NCBI GenBank assembly: GCA_024721275.1
Contig: JAMPIX010000001.1
Span: forward strand, 248,001 to 312,000
Source of the DNA: Mycoplasma sp.
GTDB taxonomy: Bacteria; Bacillota_I; Bacilli_A; Mycoplasmatales; Metamycoplasmataceae
Length of the DNA: 64,000 nucleotides
Reading direction: 5' to 3'
The number at the start of each line of letters is the position of its first letter. Within the stretch, counting starts at the first letter, position 1. The notes beneath the pieces are model-generated. The model searched no databases, was not told the DNA's origin, and saw only the letters and a list, made by a program, of their open reading frames with translations. A program made the translations under genes and the position numbers. Below are positions 27,048-48,668 of the stretch, piece by piece.

Positions 27048-28412
27048 ATGTCTATTAAAAAAAATTCATTAGGTTATGACTCTGATTTATGAGTTTATCA
27101 AGATAAAGAAATGTTTAATTATTCCGTTGATACTATAATGCTTGGTAATTTTGTTTCTTTAACCTCTTCTACAAAAAGAATATTAGAAGTAGGAACAAAC
27201 AATGGTGCACTTTCAATTTTCCTTGCTGCAAGAGATAAAAAATTAAAAATTGATGCAATAGAAATTCAAGAAAAAGCTCTTAAATTAGCACAAAAAAATG
27301 TTGTTTTAAATAAAATGGATAATATAAATCTTATTCATGCTGATTTTAATGATTATTATAAAGAAATTAATAGAATGCCTGGAAATAGATATGATACTGT
27401 AGTTTGTAATCCTCCATTTTATAAAGTTGATGCCAGTTTGCCTCAACCAAATAAAGAATTATCAATTGCAACACATGAACATATGTTAAAACTTGAAGAT
27501 TTGATATTTGGAGCATCAAAAATTTTAAAACAAGGTGGTCGTTTCACTTTAGTTCATCAAACGTCAAGAATGATAGATATAATAGAATTGTTAAGAAAAA
27601 ATAATTTCGAGCCAAAAAGAATACAAATGATACATCCAAGATCAAAAGATCCTTCCAATCTTGTTTTAATAGAATCAAGATTTCAAGTTGGTTGAGGAAC
27701 AGAATTTTTAAAGCCTTTATTTTTGCATGATGATTCATTATCACATGAATATAGACCAGAAATTAAGGAGTTATATAAGCCAATGAAAAAAGAAAACAAA
27801 GAAAAAGATTTTTGAGATAAAAAAGCAGAAAAGTTTTATGAAAGTAAAGGTCATGGCGATTCATCTACAAATGAATTTAATATACTAGAAAAATATGAAA
27901 TTAATGATAAAAAGATTATAGAAATAGGAATTGGGAATGGTAAAGATTTAAAAAAATTCTCTAAATTTACAAAAAAATTAAATGGAATTGATATTTCAAA
28001 AAATATGATTGGAAACTTTAAAAAAGAAAATCCGGACTTAAAAGTTAAACTAACTGTAAGTGATGTGAGAGATTTTTTTAAGAATGCAAAAAATAAATAT
28101 GATATTATCTATTCAAAATGATCACTAATGCACTTACAATATAATGAATTTAAAGATTTGCTAAATAATGTAAAAGATAAAATGAAAGAAGATGGAATCT
28201 TTTTAATTTCAATGAGATATGGAAATATTTTAAATAAAATACATGAAACAACAAAATTGCAATCTCTTCAATTAAATGAAGATACAATCACTGCTGCCAT
28301 TGAGAATATTGAGAAATTGACTTTAGATTCATTAAAAATATTTGATGTCATTAATGGACAAGGAAAACAAGATAAACAAATAACTTTTGTTTTAAAAAAA
28401 GGAAGTAAATAA
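27048..28412 (+). CDS. fused double methyltransferase: TrmN6-type domain plus second SAM methyltransferase
   Basis: A single 454-residue reading frame holds two Rossmann methyltransferases. Domain 1 (about 1-240) has ILEVGTNNG (Glu47) and NPPF (121-124), as in TrmN6/YfiC, which methylates N6 of A37 in tRNA-Val. Domain 2 (about 246-454) has IIEIGIGNG (292-298) and an acidic loop, typical of small-molecule or TehB/UbiE-like class I enzymes; its target is unknown. The junction has AAGGAG (27765-27770) 12 nt before Met246, so the second protein may also be made separately. It starts at the base after the AsnA-like stop and overlaps metG by one base. Confidence 0.82.
27765..27770 (+). promoter_or_regulatory. 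internal ribosome-binding site at the methyltransferase junction
   Basis: AAGGAG lies 12 nt before the in-frame ATG at 27783, exactly where the first domain should end. It may drive independent translation of the second domain. Confidence 0.5.
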
Positions 28413-36862: not shown

Positions 36863-37378
36863 ATGGATTTAGCAAATATTTTACTATGAACTTTCGATAT
36901 GATTGCCAACACTGCATCTGTTTTTCTAAGTCTTGCAGCTGCTGTTTCATCATCTAAAGCAAATGCTAAGTTAACAAATCTAATTGAAACATCATGGGTT
37001 GAAGATGAAATTCATTCAATATATATGAAAATAAAAAATTCATCTGTTTCTAACAAAAAAATGATTACAACTTTAAATAAAGATGAAGTTAAAACATATG
37101 CACAATATGCAAATCACGCTTCACAAACAAGAATTCCTTTTATTTCTTCAAGAGCAAAGGAACTTCTTGCAAAATCAATATACTTTGAATGAATAAGTGA
37201 TTTAATAATAATAAAAAAAGCTGCTGAAAAGAAATTTTTAACATTTTTTGATATTAAAAAAATTGACTCACCAGAAAAAATACCCCCTGAAATAAAAGAA
37301 AAAATAAAAGAATACCATAAAAATTTAGGTATTATTTACAAACAAATACAAAGTAATTTTGTATATGCTGCAACATAA
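36863..37378 (+). CDS. hypothetical protein with N-terminal hydrophobic helix
   Basis: The 171-residue protein starts with a hydrophobic segment at about residues 4-31 (ILLWTFDMIANTASVF), then a Lys-rich soluble region. The first helix may anchor it to the membrane, or act as an uncleaved signal. AGAGG precedes the ATG, and a TAAAAT-like -10 lies at 36848-36853. Three TGA codons and one rare TGG read as Trp. It sits between pyk and the GH13 homologue, 14 nt before the latter. No family recognised. Confidence 0.75.
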
Positions 37379-37392
37379 AAAAAGGAGAAGAA

Positions 37393-39081
37393 ATGACAAA
37401 AAAATTAATAATATATGAAGTAAATCCTATGTTTTACTTTGATAAAGATAATAAAGGTGTAGGTAGTATAAAAGGTTTAATTGATAAAATTAGTTATTTT
37501 AAATATTTAAATATTGATACTCTTGTTTTACCTAATATATTAAATGTTTACGACGATAAGAAAAAATTCAATTATTTAAATATACATCCAGGAATCGGAA
37601 CACTTGAAGATTTTATTGAATTAAATAAGGAGGCAAAGAAAAATTCGCTAAAAATATTTATCGATATTAATATAGCTACAATTAATGAAAATCATGATTG
37701 ATTTCAAAAAATTGTCTCAAAAAATGAAGTTGAAAAAAAAGTAACAAATCAAGATAATTTAAGATTCAATAATAAAACAAAATCTTTTTACTTAGTTAAT
37801 GATAAAACAACTGAAATGAAAATCGATTGAAATAGAAATAAAGAGGCTCAAAATAAATTTTTAGAAGTCATTAGATTTTGATCAAAAAATGGAATAGCAG
37901 GATTTAGATTTACTAATTTTGAAGAACTTATTTCCGAAACGGGTGAATTAACTAGTGAAATTCAACATGAATTAAGAGATTTATATACATCTATTAAAAA
38001 AATAAATTCAGATTTATTAATAATCGGATCAACAGCAAAAGAAATAAAGAATTTTGGTTCATATGCAAATAAAAATACTAGACTATTTGACTATACACAA
38101 AGTAAACATATTTCTATTATTGATTTAAATGAAAAATACAATACAGATGTGATTGGTAAATTTAGTGTTTCTAAACTTTACAAAAATATTAAAAAAATAT
38201 CAAATTCTTTCCAAGACATAATTTCATTTTCATCAAATCTTTCAGGAAGAATTGTATCTCGTTGAGGAGATAGCGAAACCTTCAATAGAGAATCAGCAAC
38301 TGCATTCGCAACATTATTGATGTTAACAAGAGGATCAACATTAATATATTATGGTGAAGAAATAGGAAGTACAAATATAGGTCTTACAAGATTAGATGAT
38401 TTTTCTGATCCGACATTACAAGAAAGACAAAAAAAATTACAATTAAATGAAAAAATAAAAAAGGAAGATTTTATGGATGCTCAAATATTGCAAAATCCAA
38501 TAAATTCTCATTCATTAATGTCATGAAGTGAAAAGAAAAATGGTGGTTTTTCTAATAGAGAAACAACTATTATTCCTGTTTCAACAAACTACAAAGAAAT
38601 AAATGTAATGAATCAATATAATGATAATTTTTCAACTCTTAATTTATATAAAAAATTAATTAATTTAACAAAAGATGAAAAATTATTAGATCTATTCACT
38701 AATGGTACATTTAAAATAAAATTACTAGGTAATATTTTGTTAAAAAGAGAAATTATTCAAATTCAATGAACTAATGTTGATCATAGAATTACAGCTATCA
38801 TTAATTTATCTAAAAAACAAAAGAAATTCTCTTTTGAAAAATATAATGGCGAATTAATTTTTGGAAATTACAAAAATTATGATGTTAAAAATAAAACTTT
38901 ATTAAATGAATATGAAGCTGTAATTTTGCATGAAAAATTTGACAGTATAAGTTATACTAACAAAATTGGCGAATTAACAGCTACTGTTGAATTAAGAAAT
39001 GAAATAAGAGATAATAATTTAGAAAATGTTGAAAAAGATACTTCTTACACATTGCCGAATGATCATATAAAGAAAGTTTAA
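37393..39081 (+). CDS. GH13 (oligo-1,6-glucosidase-like) protein lacking the catalytic triad
   Basis: The 562-residue protein aligns over its whole length with oligo-1,6-glucosidase-type GH13 enzymes. Diagnostic parts are IYEVNPMFYF, VSRWGDSE, RGSTLIYYGEEIGSTN, LMSWSEKKNGGFS and YKEINVMNQYNDNFSTLNLYKKLI. The three catalytic carboxylates are missing: GFRFT has Thr174 for the nucleophile Asp, IIGSTA has Ser213 for the acid Glu, and SSNLSGR has Leu283 for the Asp of NHDQPR. Region I NH is also lost. It is therefore likely a non-hydrolytic protein, perhaps carbohydrate-binding. No signal peptide. GGAG precedes the ATG; the MBL gene follows after 2 nt. Confidence 0.85.
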
Positions 39082-39083
39082 TT

Positions 39084-39707
39084 ATGGAAAAAAATATTTA
39101 TCAAATAAGAGGGGGATTTATTCATCAAAATACTTTTTTAATTTCATTAAATAATAATTCTATTATTATTGATCCTGGCTTGAATTCAAAAGAAGTTATT
39201 GAATATTTTGAAAATAGTAAATTAAAACCAATTGCAATATTATTAACTCATTATCATTTTGATCATAGTCACGAAATAAACATTTTAGAAAAAAAATATA
39301 ATATTAAAACATATATTTCGAATAAAGATTTTAGTTTTTTATTAAAAGATACTTTATCAGGTGTTTTTAAATTAGAAAAAACAATAATTGATGAAAAAAA
39401 TATTTTATTTTTTGAAGAAAAAATGAAAATTGATGATTTTGATTTAGAAATATTAGAAACACCAGGACATTCAGAAGGTTCTGTGTGTATAAAATGAGAT
39501 GACAATATTTTTACTGGAGATACGATTTTTTATAATACAATAGGAAGAACTGATATTCCTGGAAGTGATAAATTAAAAATGAAAAAAACTTTAGAATTAA
39601 TATTTAATAATTTTAAAGAAAATTACCATATTTATCCTGGTCACGGAAATAGTGATAAATGGGGAAATATCTCAAAAAGAATAAAGAATTTCTTAGAAGA
39701 TATATAA
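39084..39707 (+). CDS. MBL-fold metallo-hydrolase (glyoxalase II-like)
   Basis: The 207-residue protein has the metallo-beta-lactamase signature LLTHYHFDHSHE (HxHxDH), TPGHSEGSV, FTGDTIF, GRTD and YPGHGN. The length and pattern match the short hydrolases often annotated as hydroxyacylglutathione hydrolase. Since mycoplasmas generally lack glutathione, the thioester substrate is uncertain. It follows the GH13 homologue by 2 nt with no clear Shine-Dalgarno sequence, suggesting coupling. Confidence 0.85.
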
Positions 39708-39877: not shown

Positions 39878-40435
39878 ATGAATAAACAAAAACAAGCTAA
39901 AGTTGATACAATAAAAAACATAGTTCAAAAGATAGACAAATCAAAAGCTATGGTTGTTGCTGAATATCGTGGGTTATCTGTTAAGAAACTTCAAGAATTA
40001 AGATCAGAACTTAGAAAAAAAGATGTAGAATTCATTATATTTAAAAATAGACTTATGAAACTTGCTCTTAAAGAATCTGGAATTACTGGTTTAGATGAAA
40101 ATTTAGTAGGACCAAATGGATTTGCATTTGGATATACTGATGATATATCACCAGCAAAAATTTTATTTAATTTTTCAAAAGATAATGAAGAATTAAAAAT
40201 TAAAGCCGGAATATATGAAGGTAATACAATTACTGAAGAACAAGTAAAAGAGATAGCGGTTTTACCAACTTATGATGAAGCACTAACAATCTTAGCGATG
40301 TCAATGATGTCACCGTTAAAAAATATGTCCGTTTCACTGAAAATGTTAATTGATGAAAATCATATCAAAGCAGATACAGTAGAAGCTAAGACAGAAACAA
40401 ATCAAAAAGAAGAAGAGAAAGAAGGAGAAAAATAA
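39878..40435 (+). CDS. rplJ: 50S ribosomal protein L10
   Basis: The 185-residue protein has [23 protein letters not shown] and [15 protein letters not shown], the rRNA-binding core, with an acidic/Lys-rich C-terminal tail (EEEKEGEK). It anchors L7/L12 dimers to the stalk. AAAGGAG lies 6 nt before the ATG. The stop overlaps rplL (TAATG). Expression is likely controlled by the L10 leader upstream. Confidence 0.98.
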
Positions 40436-40803
40436 TGGCTAAAATAACAAAAGAATCATTTATAGAATCACTAAAGGAAATGTCAATTAAGGAAGTAATG
40501 GAATTAGTTGATGCAATGAAAGAGGAGTTTGGAATAGACCCTTCTGCAGTTGCAGTTGCAGCAGCAGGCCCAGCAGAAGCAAATGCTGCACCTTCTGAAG
40601 TAACAGTTACTTTAGAAGCAGTTGGAGGAAATAAAGTTGCTGTAATTAAAGCGGTTAAAGAAATAACTGGAGCAGGACTTATGGATGCTAAGAAAATGGT
40701 AGATTCTGCACCTACACCAATTAAAGAAGCTATAAAACCTGAAGAAGCAGAAGAAATTAAAACTAAATTAGAAGCTGCTGGAGCAACTGTTAAGGTTGCT
40801 TAG
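40435..40803 (+). CDS. rplL: 50S ribosomal protein L7/L12
   Basis: The 122-residue protein has an N-terminal dimerisation domain, an Ala-rich hinge around residues 38-52 ([15 protein letters not shown]) and the C-terminal factor-binding domain with [23 protein letters not shown]. It forms the flexible ribosomal stalk for elongation factors. It overlaps rplJ by one base. Confidence 0.98.
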
Positions 40804-40866: not shown

Positions 40867-40957
40867 TTATTATTTTAATAATAATATGATAAAATTTAGA
40901 AATTAAATTAGAATAAACTTCTAAAAATATAACATCAACATTTTAAAGGGAGTGATC

Positions 40958-43900
40958 ATGAAAAAAATGACAAGTATAACTGAAAGAAAATTTGGTGCTG
41001 GAACAACTAGACAGGTTTTTGGTAAGACACATAAATCACTTGAACCAACAGATTTATTAAAAATACAAAGAGATGCATTTAAAAAATTCTTAAAAGAAGG
41101 AATAGACAATGCATTTAAAGATGTATTTCCTATAATTTCCCCAAAAGGAAATATAAGAGTTGAATTTATTTCAAAAAGAATTGAAAAACCAAAAAATGAA
41201 TATCAATCAATTGTTGAAGCAAAACAAAAAGGTAAAAATTATTTAGCTAAATTATTTGCTAAAGTAAGAATTATTAATGATGAAACCGGTATTGTTAAAA
41301 AAGATGAAATTCTTTTTTGTGAAATGCCTTTAATGACAAATGGGTGTTCATTCATTATTAATGGATCTGAAAAAGTAATAATTTCACAATTAGAACGTTC
41401 ACCTTCAGTTTACTTTGAATTAAATACTCCAAAAGGAGATGATCTATTTCACCAAGCTACAATAATTCCAAACCTTGGACCAAGAATTCAATTAAAATCT
41501 AAAGTAAGAAAATTCAATACAACAGCAAATGGTAAAGAAAGAATTGACTCTATTAAAATTTATCTTGATACAGTTTCATCAAGAGGTAAAAGAGCAAAAT
41601 CATTTTTACTTACAACTTTTTTACGTTCACTAGGATTAAAAGAAGAAACAATAATTGAATTATTTGGTGGCAATACCTTAGAATTGATGGAAACTTTAAA
41701 AAGAGAAAAAACAGAAATAAAAACAGAAGATGGATCATTAAAACATATTTATAGATCTATTAGATCTGGTGATCGTGCAACAAGTCAATTTGTTGCTGAT
41801 TTTTATGGAAACTTATTCTTTAATAAGAAAAGATATAAATTAACAAAAACTGGTAGAGCAATGCTTAATAGAAAATTAAATCTTGTAGAGAGATTAGTTG
41901 ATACATATTTAGCAGAAGATTTGAAAACAGCTGAGGCTGGTGTTGTTAGATTTAAGAAAGATACATATATTACATTTGAATTAGCTAAAGAAATTCAAGC
42001 TGCTTATGAAAATAAAGAGTTATCATTATCAAAAATTTCTGATATAAAACCAGAAGTGTATGGAAAACAATTAGAAGAAACAAAAAAATTAAAGCACTTT
42101 AGAAGTGCAATAATAGTAAAAGTTTATAAAAATCCATCAGAAAAAGATGTTGTACATACTATCATCGCAAATGATCCAACTACAAAATTTGAATTCCTTA
42201 CAGTTCCTGATTTAATAGCAACTATTTCATATTATATAAATATTTTAAATGGAATAGGATTAGAAGATGATACTGATTCATTAAAAAACAAAAGAATAAA
42301 ATTAGTTGGTGAATTACTAGAAAATCAACTAAGAATTGGTCTTGCAAAAATGGAAAGTTCTGTAAAAGAAAAGATGGCAACAAAAGAAGTTGATAAAATA
42401 ACTCCTAAGTTTATTATTAACAATAAACATGTTGCTAATTCAATTAACTCATTCTTTAATACTTCACAATTATCTCAGTTTATGGATCAAATAAATCCAT
42501 TAGCAGAAATGTCAAATAAACGTAGAGTTACTTCTCTTGGACCTGCAGGATTAAAACGTGAAACTGCTCCATTTGAAACTCGTGATGTTCATCAAACTCA
42601 TTATGGAAGAATATGTCCAATTGAAACACCTGAAGGACAAAATATTGGTTTAATATTGAACTTTGCATTATTTTCTAGAATTAATGAACTAGGATTTATT
42701 GAAACACCATATTTTAAAGTTGAAAACGGAGTAGTTGATTATTCAGAACCTGTTTATTTATCTGCTATTGATGAAGAAAATAAATTAATTGCACAATCTT
42801 CAACTGAAATTGAAAACGGTAAAATAACTGCTAAAGTTATAGTTGCAAGAAAAAATGGTGATTTTTTATTAGTTTCACCAAATGAAATTCAATATCTTGA
42901 TGTTGCATCAAATCAATTAGCATCTGTTGCTTCATCATTAATACCTTTCTTAGAAAATGATGATGCTAACCGTACACTTATGGGAGCTAACATGCAACGT
43001 CAAGCAGTTCCTTTAATAAAAGCTGAAGCTCCTGTTGTTGCTACAGGTATGGAAGAAATAATTGGAAAATATGCTCCTACAAATATAAGATCTGAAAGAG
43101 ATGGAGTTGTTTCATCTGTTGATTCAACACAAATAATAATAAAAGATGATAGCGGACGTTCTAAAACATATAGATTACGTACATTTGAAAGATCAAATCA
43201 AGCTTCTTTAATTACACAAAAACCAATAGTTAATATTGGAGATGAAATAAAAGAAGGTCAATTATTGACCGATTCTTCATCATTTGATAATGGTGAATTA
43301 GCTATTGGTAAGAATGTATTAGTTGCTTTCTCAACTTGAAATGGTTACAATTATGAGGATGCTATTATTGTTTCTGAAAGATTGGTGAAAGATGATGTTT
43401 ATACTTCGATTCATATTGAAGAATATAAAATAGAATTTAGAAGAAACAAAGTAGGAAACGATGAATTAACAACTGAAATTCCTAATGTATCTAATTATTC
43501 AAAAAGATTTTTAGATGCAAATGGAATAGTTAGAATTGGTTCAGAAGTTTCAGCTGGTGATATATTAGTTGGTCGTACAACGCCAAAAGGTGAAGAGAAT
43601 TTAACTCCTGAAGAAAAATTATTATCTGCAATATTTTCTGAAAAATCAAAAGCAAACAAAGATACTTCTTTAAAAGTTAAACATGGACAAGCTGGAACGG
43701 TAATTGATGCTGAAATTCTTTCAAGAGAAAACGGCGATAAATTAGATGATGGAATTGAACAAATTGTAAAAATTTATATTGCTCAAAAAAGAAAGATAAA
43801 AGTTGGAGATAAGATGGCTGGTCGTCACGGAAATAAAGGTGTTATTTCTAGAGTACTTCCTATTGAAGATATGCCGCACTTAGAAGATGGTACACCAGTA

Positions 43901-44498
43901 GATATTATGTTAAATCCATTAGGAGTTCCATCTCGTATGAATATTGGTCAAGTTTTAGAATTACACTTAGGAATGGCTGCTAGAGGTTTAAATACAAAAT
44001 TTGTTACACCTATTCTTGATGGTGCAAAAGTTGATGAAATTAATGAAAAAATGAAAGAAGCTGGACTTCCAGAATCTGGAAAATTAAAATTATACAATCC
44101 AATATCAGGCGATGTATTTGATAACGATGTTGCAATTGGTGTTATGTATATGCTTAAATTATCACACATGGTTGATGATAAAGTTCATGCTCGTTCAGTT
44201 GGACCATATTCAATAATTACACAACAACCACTTGGAGGAAAATCTCAAAATGGTGGACAAAGATTCGGAGAAATGGAAGTTTGAGCAATTGAGGCTTATG
44301 GAGCAGCAAATGTTTTAAGAGAAATGCTTACATATAAATCAGATGATATTTCTGGAAGAAATAATTTATATAATGCAATAACAACAAATAAAAAAATTCC
44401 AGTACCTGGAATACCAGAATCGTTTAATGTTTTAGCTAATGAACTTAGAGGTTTATCATTAAAACCAGAGTTATTACAAGATGAAGAGGAGTTTGAAA

Positions 44499-44506
<8 letters not shown>
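40958..44506 (+). CDS. rpoB: RNA polymerase subunit beta
   Basis: The 1182-residue subunit keeps the family landmarks: [38 protein letters not shown] (rifampicin region), [30 protein letters not shown] and the C-terminal [18 protein letters not shown]. In the rifampicin region, Asn follows DQ...SNKRR where His is usual, a change reported in naturally rifampicin-resistant mollicutes. The first ATG after AAAGGGAG (40945-40952) is chosen. It overlaps rpoC by 8 nt. Confidence 0.98.

Positions 44507-48668
<4,162 letters not shown>

Follow-up and report, generated by a model that had tools for sequence, protein, structure and literature searches.

The window, a 64,000-nucleotide stretch of a Mycoplasma sp. 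genome, contains a gene for a homologue of GH13 enzymes, here called pGH13, which lies where a pfkA-pyk-u171 block meets a block running from pGH13 through a metallo-beta-lactamase-fold hydrolase gene to rplJ, rplL, rpoB, and rpoC (Table 1). Translation with table 4 reads six TGA codons of pGH13 as Trp and meets zero internal stops. The protein matched the Pfam profile PF00128 over residues 14-432 (E 1.7e-43), and its closest PDB sequences were TreA, sucrose isomerase, and oligo-1,6-glucosidase. The top NCBIfam model was TreC (TIGR02403), with a score of 204.8 bits against a curated cut-off of 799; mycoplasma enzymes tested against this model scored 451-492, likewise under the cut-off. Elsewhere in the window, a 454-residue open reading frame (27048-28412) appears, by reading, to combine two methyltransferase domains in a single chain, one TrmN6-like and a second SAM-dependent one.

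Table 1. Coordinates of pGH13, its former catalytic motifs, and its neighbors in the window
Feature	Position	Strand	Basis or remark
pGH13, predicted GH13-derived pseudoenzyme, 562 aa, table 4	37393..39081	+	reading, PF00128, alignment, tree
Site of former motif I, FIDINIATI (89-97); Ala-Thr in place of Asn-His	37657..37683	+	alignment with 22 active GH13
Site of former motif II, GFRFTNFE (170-177); Thr174 in place of the nucleophile Asp	37900..37923	+	alignment
Site of former motif III, LLIIGST (208-214); Ser213 in place of the acid/base Glu	38014..38034	+	alignment
Site of former motif IV, ISFSSNLSGRIVSRW (277-291); Asn282-Leu283 in place of His-Asp	38221..38265	+	alignment
YYGEEIG, residues 319-325, structural motif retained	38347..38367	+	alignment
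C-terminal tail of 47 residues, 516-562; TLPNDHI at 553-559	38938..39078	+	
u171, small protein, one hydrophobic N-terminal stretch	36863..37378	+	ends 14 bp ahead of pGH13
Metallo-beta-lactamase-fold hydrolase, between pGH13 and rplJ	39084..39707	+	assigned by reading
rplJ and rplL, conserved downstream of pGH13 (g8, g14, one g6 genome)	39878..40803	+	
rpoB and rpoC, ancestral block continued	40952..48668	+	

Catalytic columns, conservation, and selection

We aligned pGH13 with 22 GH13 proteins that have intact motifs. The nucleophile, acid/base, and stabilizer columns, which are Asp, Glu, and Asp in all 22, are occupied by Thr174, Ser213, and Leu283 in the window copy. These three replacements within a full-length reading frame of 562 residues, as well as the retention of YYGEEIG and YKEINV, had been described in a first-pass annotation of the window and were all borne out. 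The loss of the triad thus stands, and its extent is wider than that annotation had claimed, as the motif I Asn-His (now Ala95-Thr96) and the His preceding the stabilizer (now Asn282) are also gone. Arg172 is the sole catalytic-motif position still kept. Within motif II, this Arg is peculiar to the window orthologue and an N-F-E sequence is newly conserved, while Arg286 and Trp291 are conserved within motif IV.

Searches covered 135 genomes of the family, whose genera are labeled g1 to g14, and a profile search covered 320 genomes of the order, followed by extraction of open reading frames. Full-length orthologues were recovered from 53 of 58 genomes in 11 genera of the family (g1, 1/1; g2, 1/2; g3, 1/1; g5, 5/5; g6, 23/24; g7, 3/3; g8, 3/3; g10, 1/2; g12, 4/4; g13, 1/1; g14, 10/12). 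Carriers include M. zalophi (G046), M. marinum (G051), and M. hominis PG21 (G034). Two additional copies were incomplete, one a contig-end fragment (G131) and the other broken (G044). pGH13 was not detected in the 77 genomes of g4, g9, and g11, which have active-type GH13 copies or none, and the 20 order-level matches inspected outside the family were all motif-intact, with no pGH13 among them. A single-protein pGH13 query against the genome contigs matched zero relatives, and among the orthologues, a scan of contigs with a 10-row alignment named just M. zalophi and M. marinum. In G002, a short, TGA-poor contig turned out to encode a different GH13 protein.

Other mycoplasmas share the catalytic loss, as each of the 53 orthologues lacks at least two of the triad carboxylates. 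The stabilizer Asp is absent from every copy; the nucleophile Asp is present in nine, all from g6, and the acid/base Glu in six, from g12, g7, and one g5 genome. The motif I Asn-His occurs in 0/53, the His preceding the stabilizer in 1/53, and the Arg two residues ahead of the nucleophile in the window copy only (1/53). We rejected the nucleophile Asp of the nine g6 copies as a sign of activity, since the acid/base, stabilizer, Arg, and Asn-His are all absent from those copies.

In a ranking of columns by how well the pGH13 clade conserves them, the catalytic ones fell at ranks 243-441 of 502. Near the top are structural positions common to the enzymes (Trp378, Tyr8, Gly321, Glu323, and Arg286, with Glu323 invariant in 53/53 and column 286 Arg or Lys in 52/53). 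Other positions, among them Asp233, Tyr198, Lys202, Asn175-Phe176, Glu300, Glu508, and Gly285, are better conserved in pGH13 than in the enzymes. Column 213 is Lys or Arg in 36 of the 53 orthologues; the window copy has Ser there, and g5, g7, and g12 vary. One could propose that other residues now run another chemistry in the same barrel; invariant Glu323, near-invariant Asp322, Glu/Asp177, and Arg286 could in principle form a site. We consider this improbable, since Glu323 and Arg286 are equally invariant in active enzymes and are therefore not new, the barrel mouth has no novel set of polar residues that all genera conserve, and column 213 is unconserved. The orthologues have a median of 5 Trp compared to 16 in the actives, and a median domain B of 52 residues compared to 74, both of which count against the support of carbohydrate binding that the first-pass annotation had put forward.

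Close pairs of pGH13 genes gave dN/dS values of 0.061, 0.073, 0.081, and 0.030 (Nei-Gojobori); the whole range was 0.03-0.18 with more distant pairs, for which dS is near saturation. For the first three of these genome pairs, holA gave 0.117, 0.082, and 0.097, with pGH13 lower in 3/3. A useless gene would show otherwise, so that simple decay of pGH13 is scarcely credible, even with the broken G044 copy and the lack of detection in g4, g9, and g11 on its side: the check for purifying selection went against it and the gene is intact in 53 genomes. Moreover, in the single-contig genome G044, pGH13 and the adjacent holA are both frameshifted (L114), and two neighboring genes equally broken suggest assembly errors. 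Within a 16-row table, the part of the M. hominis transposon literature that was covered, no insertion falls in the pGH13 gene.

As judged from these alignments, pGH13 is very probably a conserved pseudoenzyme that lacks GH13 hydrolase activity: the triad is absent, as are the motif I, Arg, and His features across the orthologues, while the fold and selection are retained. The loss shared by 53 orthologues, the purifying selection, and a fold predicted to be intact put the pattern well outside what chance would give. A non-enzymatic role for an intact, conserved gene, as first suggested from the window alone, is well supported.

Inheritance, gene order, and candidate partners

A tree of 67 sequences was built by quick search in IQ-TREE under LG+C20 and has long branches. 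The 53 pGH13 proteins form one side of a branch with an SH-aLRT of 100. TreC-like active enzymes of g2 and g11 adjoin this clade (99), and most genera with multiple genomes cluster within it. While the long branches could make the tree misleading on its own, gene order nonetheless agrees. The genera g5 and g12 and some g6 genomes share the order comEC-holA-pGH13; the remaining g6 genomes, g7, and most of g14 have holA-pGH13; and pGH13 is followed by rplJ-rplL in g8, g14, and a single g6 genome. Counted by hand, holA immediately precedes pGH13 in 41/53 genomes; in the window genome it is on another contig. In g4, comEC is beside rplJ-rplL-rpoB without pGH13. The position of pGH13 between holA and rplJ-rplL-rpoBC in several genera points to vertical inheritance, which is largely genus by genus, and the catalytic loss predates the split of the mycoplasma genera.

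This placement also points weakly to a partner in the comEC-holA or rplJL-rpoBC block; the context may be a hint of such a partner or may reflect plain inheritance. The holA gene encodes the clamp-loader delta subunit, and rplJ-rplL the ribosomal stalk. A bolder proposal, that the GH13 fold left carbohydrate biology entirely and became a lineage-wide housekeeping factor of minimal cells, linked to an operon with holA, rplJ-rplL, and the RNA polymerase genes, is tentative and somewhat doubtful.

The gene immediately upstream, u171, had been suggested as a linked partner in the first-pass annotation, a suggestion we rejected. Homologues of u171 (24-33% identical) occur in g2, g3, g8, g10, and g14, and in all four relatives examined (G051, G053, G001, and G055) the homologue comes after pfkA-pyk and not beside pGH13. 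Since u171 is downstream of pfkA-pyk in these genomes, it is part of that block; next to pGH13 in the window, it appears to mark the place where two blocks join. Given this context, u171 may be connected with glycolysis. The pyk gene of G053 (L249:1254-2503), a draft genome, is split into two overlapping frames, likely by a frameshift or assembly error. The metallo-beta-lactamase-fold gene between pGH13 and rplJ is not conserved at that position in relatives.

Another recurrent neighbor of pGH13, in several arrangements, is TM163-pgsA. TM163 is a one-span membrane protein of 163-193 aa (for example L035:3886-4377, and 69327-69836 of contig C1 in the window genome, G000) with weak, sub-threshold ZapG-like similarity. 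Its gene often adjoins pgsA and at some loci also follows a DivIVA/GpsB-like gene. TM163 is present in 131 of the 135 family genomes, with or without pGH13; being near-universal, it gives no co-occurrence signal and is not singled out as a partner. Assignment of u171 to the TM163 family was also rejected (hhalign probability 0.3, with TM163 elsewhere in the genome).

We also considered active GH13 paralogues as partners. In plants, the noncatalytic isoamylase ISA2 is a GH13 pseudoenzyme (PMC12510319). Like pGH13, it is an ancient GH13 paralogue without catalytic residues that was kept lineage-wide (PMC12510319); unlike pGH13, it acts in complex with its active paralogue ISA1 on glucan. A regulatory subunit of this kind would fit g5, g8, g12, and some g14, where pGH13 genomes also encode active GH13 enzymes. 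However, pGH13 is kept under purifying selection with no other strong GH13 match in almost every g6 genome and the majority of g14 genomes, M. hominis PG21 included; their best PF00128 match is weak, at pGH13's own level. Because many genomes contain no other strong match, pGH13 is not the partner of an active GH13 there, and the subunit reading, refuted as a general role, is very unlikely. Besides pGH13, the window genome encodes a single GH13 protein, which resembles sucrose phosphorylase, with a TIGR03852 score below cut-off (L002:1252-2865; 360460-361338 of contig C2); this likewise speaks against the subunit reading. By reading, this protein keeps the Asp, Glu, and His-Asp motifs.

Phosphofructokinase is absent in all but two g6 genomes, which agrees with the report that M. 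hominis is non-glycolytic (PMC2751442). The lack of both this enzyme and any other GH13 in most g6 genomes is a further point against carbohydrate-binding support.

Predicted structure and possible functions

AlphaFold2 models of the window copy (pLDDT 80.9, pTM 0.81; low confidence at residues 110-145, in domain B, and in the C-terminal tail) and of a g6 copy (pLDDT 87.6, pTM 0.90) both contain a complete barrel and C-terminal domain. Both also place a helix directly after strand 3, where the enzymes hold the Asn-His motif. The top Foldseek matches were GH13 alpha-glucosidases and sucrose isomerases only. Together with the PF00128 match, the predicted barrel and C-terminal beta domain place pGH13 in the GH13 fold family. 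The nearest proteins in sequence, structure, and tree are those of GH13_29 and GH13_31 (the trehalose-6-phosphate hydrolases TreC/TreA, the oligo-1,6-glucosidase MalL, and dextran glucosidase). pGH13 resembles them in fold, in the length of the barrel and C-terminal domain, and in the YYGEEIG and YKEIN landmarks, but differs in that all catalytic motifs are replaced, domain B is shorter, and Trp residues are lost.

A hydropathy scan found no membrane or other hydrophobic segment in any of the 53 orthologues, and no transporter gene was conserved beside pGH13 in the gene neighborhoods compared. These results tell against the first-pass proposal of transporter support, which had cited rBAT and 4F2hc as catalytically dead GH13 precedents. 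This holds for the 4F2hc ectodomain, which lacks the triad, but not for that of rBAT, which conserves the three catalytic residues (PMC8537225). 4F2hc, grouped with rBAT among the GH13_34/GH13_35 ectodomains, does resemble pGH13 in using a GH13 fold in a non-hydrolytic role, and a transporter heavy-chain helper would draw on the shared oligo-1,6-glucosidase-type fold and the missing catalytic residues of 4F2hc (PMC8537225). Nevertheless, 4F2hc and rBAT are membrane-anchored ectodomains bound to SLC7 transporters, and pGH13 has neither the signal or membrane segment of such type II membrane proteins nor a conserved transporter neighbor; the one adjacent membrane-anchored small protein, u171, goes with pfkA-pyk. 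The absence of membrane segments from all 53 orthologues makes a heavy chain of this type highly unlikely.

Conserved residues (N175-F176-E177, G285-R286, S289, W291, and Y319-E323) fall in the barrel-mouth loops that follow strands 4, 7, and 8 at their C-terminal ends, and further conserved positions would cluster on the opposite face of the barrel, as predicted from its topology. TreC enzymes bind trehalose 6-phosphate, and the barrel mouth of pGH13 could, in an unlikely scenario, still bind a small molecule such as a sugar phosphate or other anionic metabolite and so tune a partner. The loop residues and the basic residues that predominate at columns 213 and 286 are as expected for such a ligand-binding sensor. 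Against it are the Ser at position 213 of the window copy, the variability of this column in g5, g7, and g12, the reduction of Trp to a third, the shrunken domain B, and the loss of the motif I Asn-His from all copies.

The explanation that we favor overall, by a modest preference, is that pGH13 is a soluble, cytosolic GH13 pseudoenzyme of TreC-like ancestry and would act by protein contacts; for the contact mechanism taken by itself, we regard the evidence as evenly poised. The ancestor of these mycoplasma genera would have had a copy of a TreC-like intracellular alpha-glucosidase that lost its catalytic machinery, yet was kept. Contacts could be made through the barrel mouth (the N-F-E loop, Gly-Arg-x-x-Ser-Arg-Trp, YYGDELG, and Glu300/Lys303) and through the opposite face (Tyr198, Lys202, and Asp233). 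In some genera, further contacts may come from a C-terminal tail with a short conserved motif at its end.

The window copy and the orthologues of g2, g3, g8, and g10, five genera in all, have charged C-terminal tails (L037:5244-7763, L033, L035, L036, L066, and the window locus), with lengths of 47 to 318 residues and, in one g8 genome, 21. Near its end the window tail reads TLPNDHI, which is similar to what orthologues of other genera have at the same place, a pattern spotted after the fact. The pattern T[LIVR]x[NED][DSE][HDE]I occurs near the end of 5/7 tailed copies, with a frequency of 0.003-0.01 in each when shuffled; as it was drawn from the same sequences in which it was tested, it serves as a lead only.

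No bacterial GH13 pseudoenzyme family, in mycoplasmas or otherwise, was reported in the open-access full texts searched. Pseudoenzymes of this family are on record for plants (ISA2) and animals (4F2hc). What appears new in pGH13 is a GH13 pseudoenzyme that is bacterial, lineage-wide, apparently soluble, and, in many genomes, lacking an active partner. It spans 11 or more genera of mycoplasmas, which rank with the bacteria of smallest known genome. Among its carriers is M. hominis, a human opportunist with 665,445 bases in its PG21 chromosome and 537 coding sequences in its genome (PMC2751442). That about 1.5 kb is kept for a dead sugar enzyme after the loss of other strong GH13 proteins argues for another need in the cell. 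pGH13 thus offers fold repurposing in a form that is clean and open to test, and it adds a candidate unknown to a minimal-genome gene set. Under homology-based naming, it would probably be misannotated as an alpha-amylase or oligo-1,6-glucosidase.
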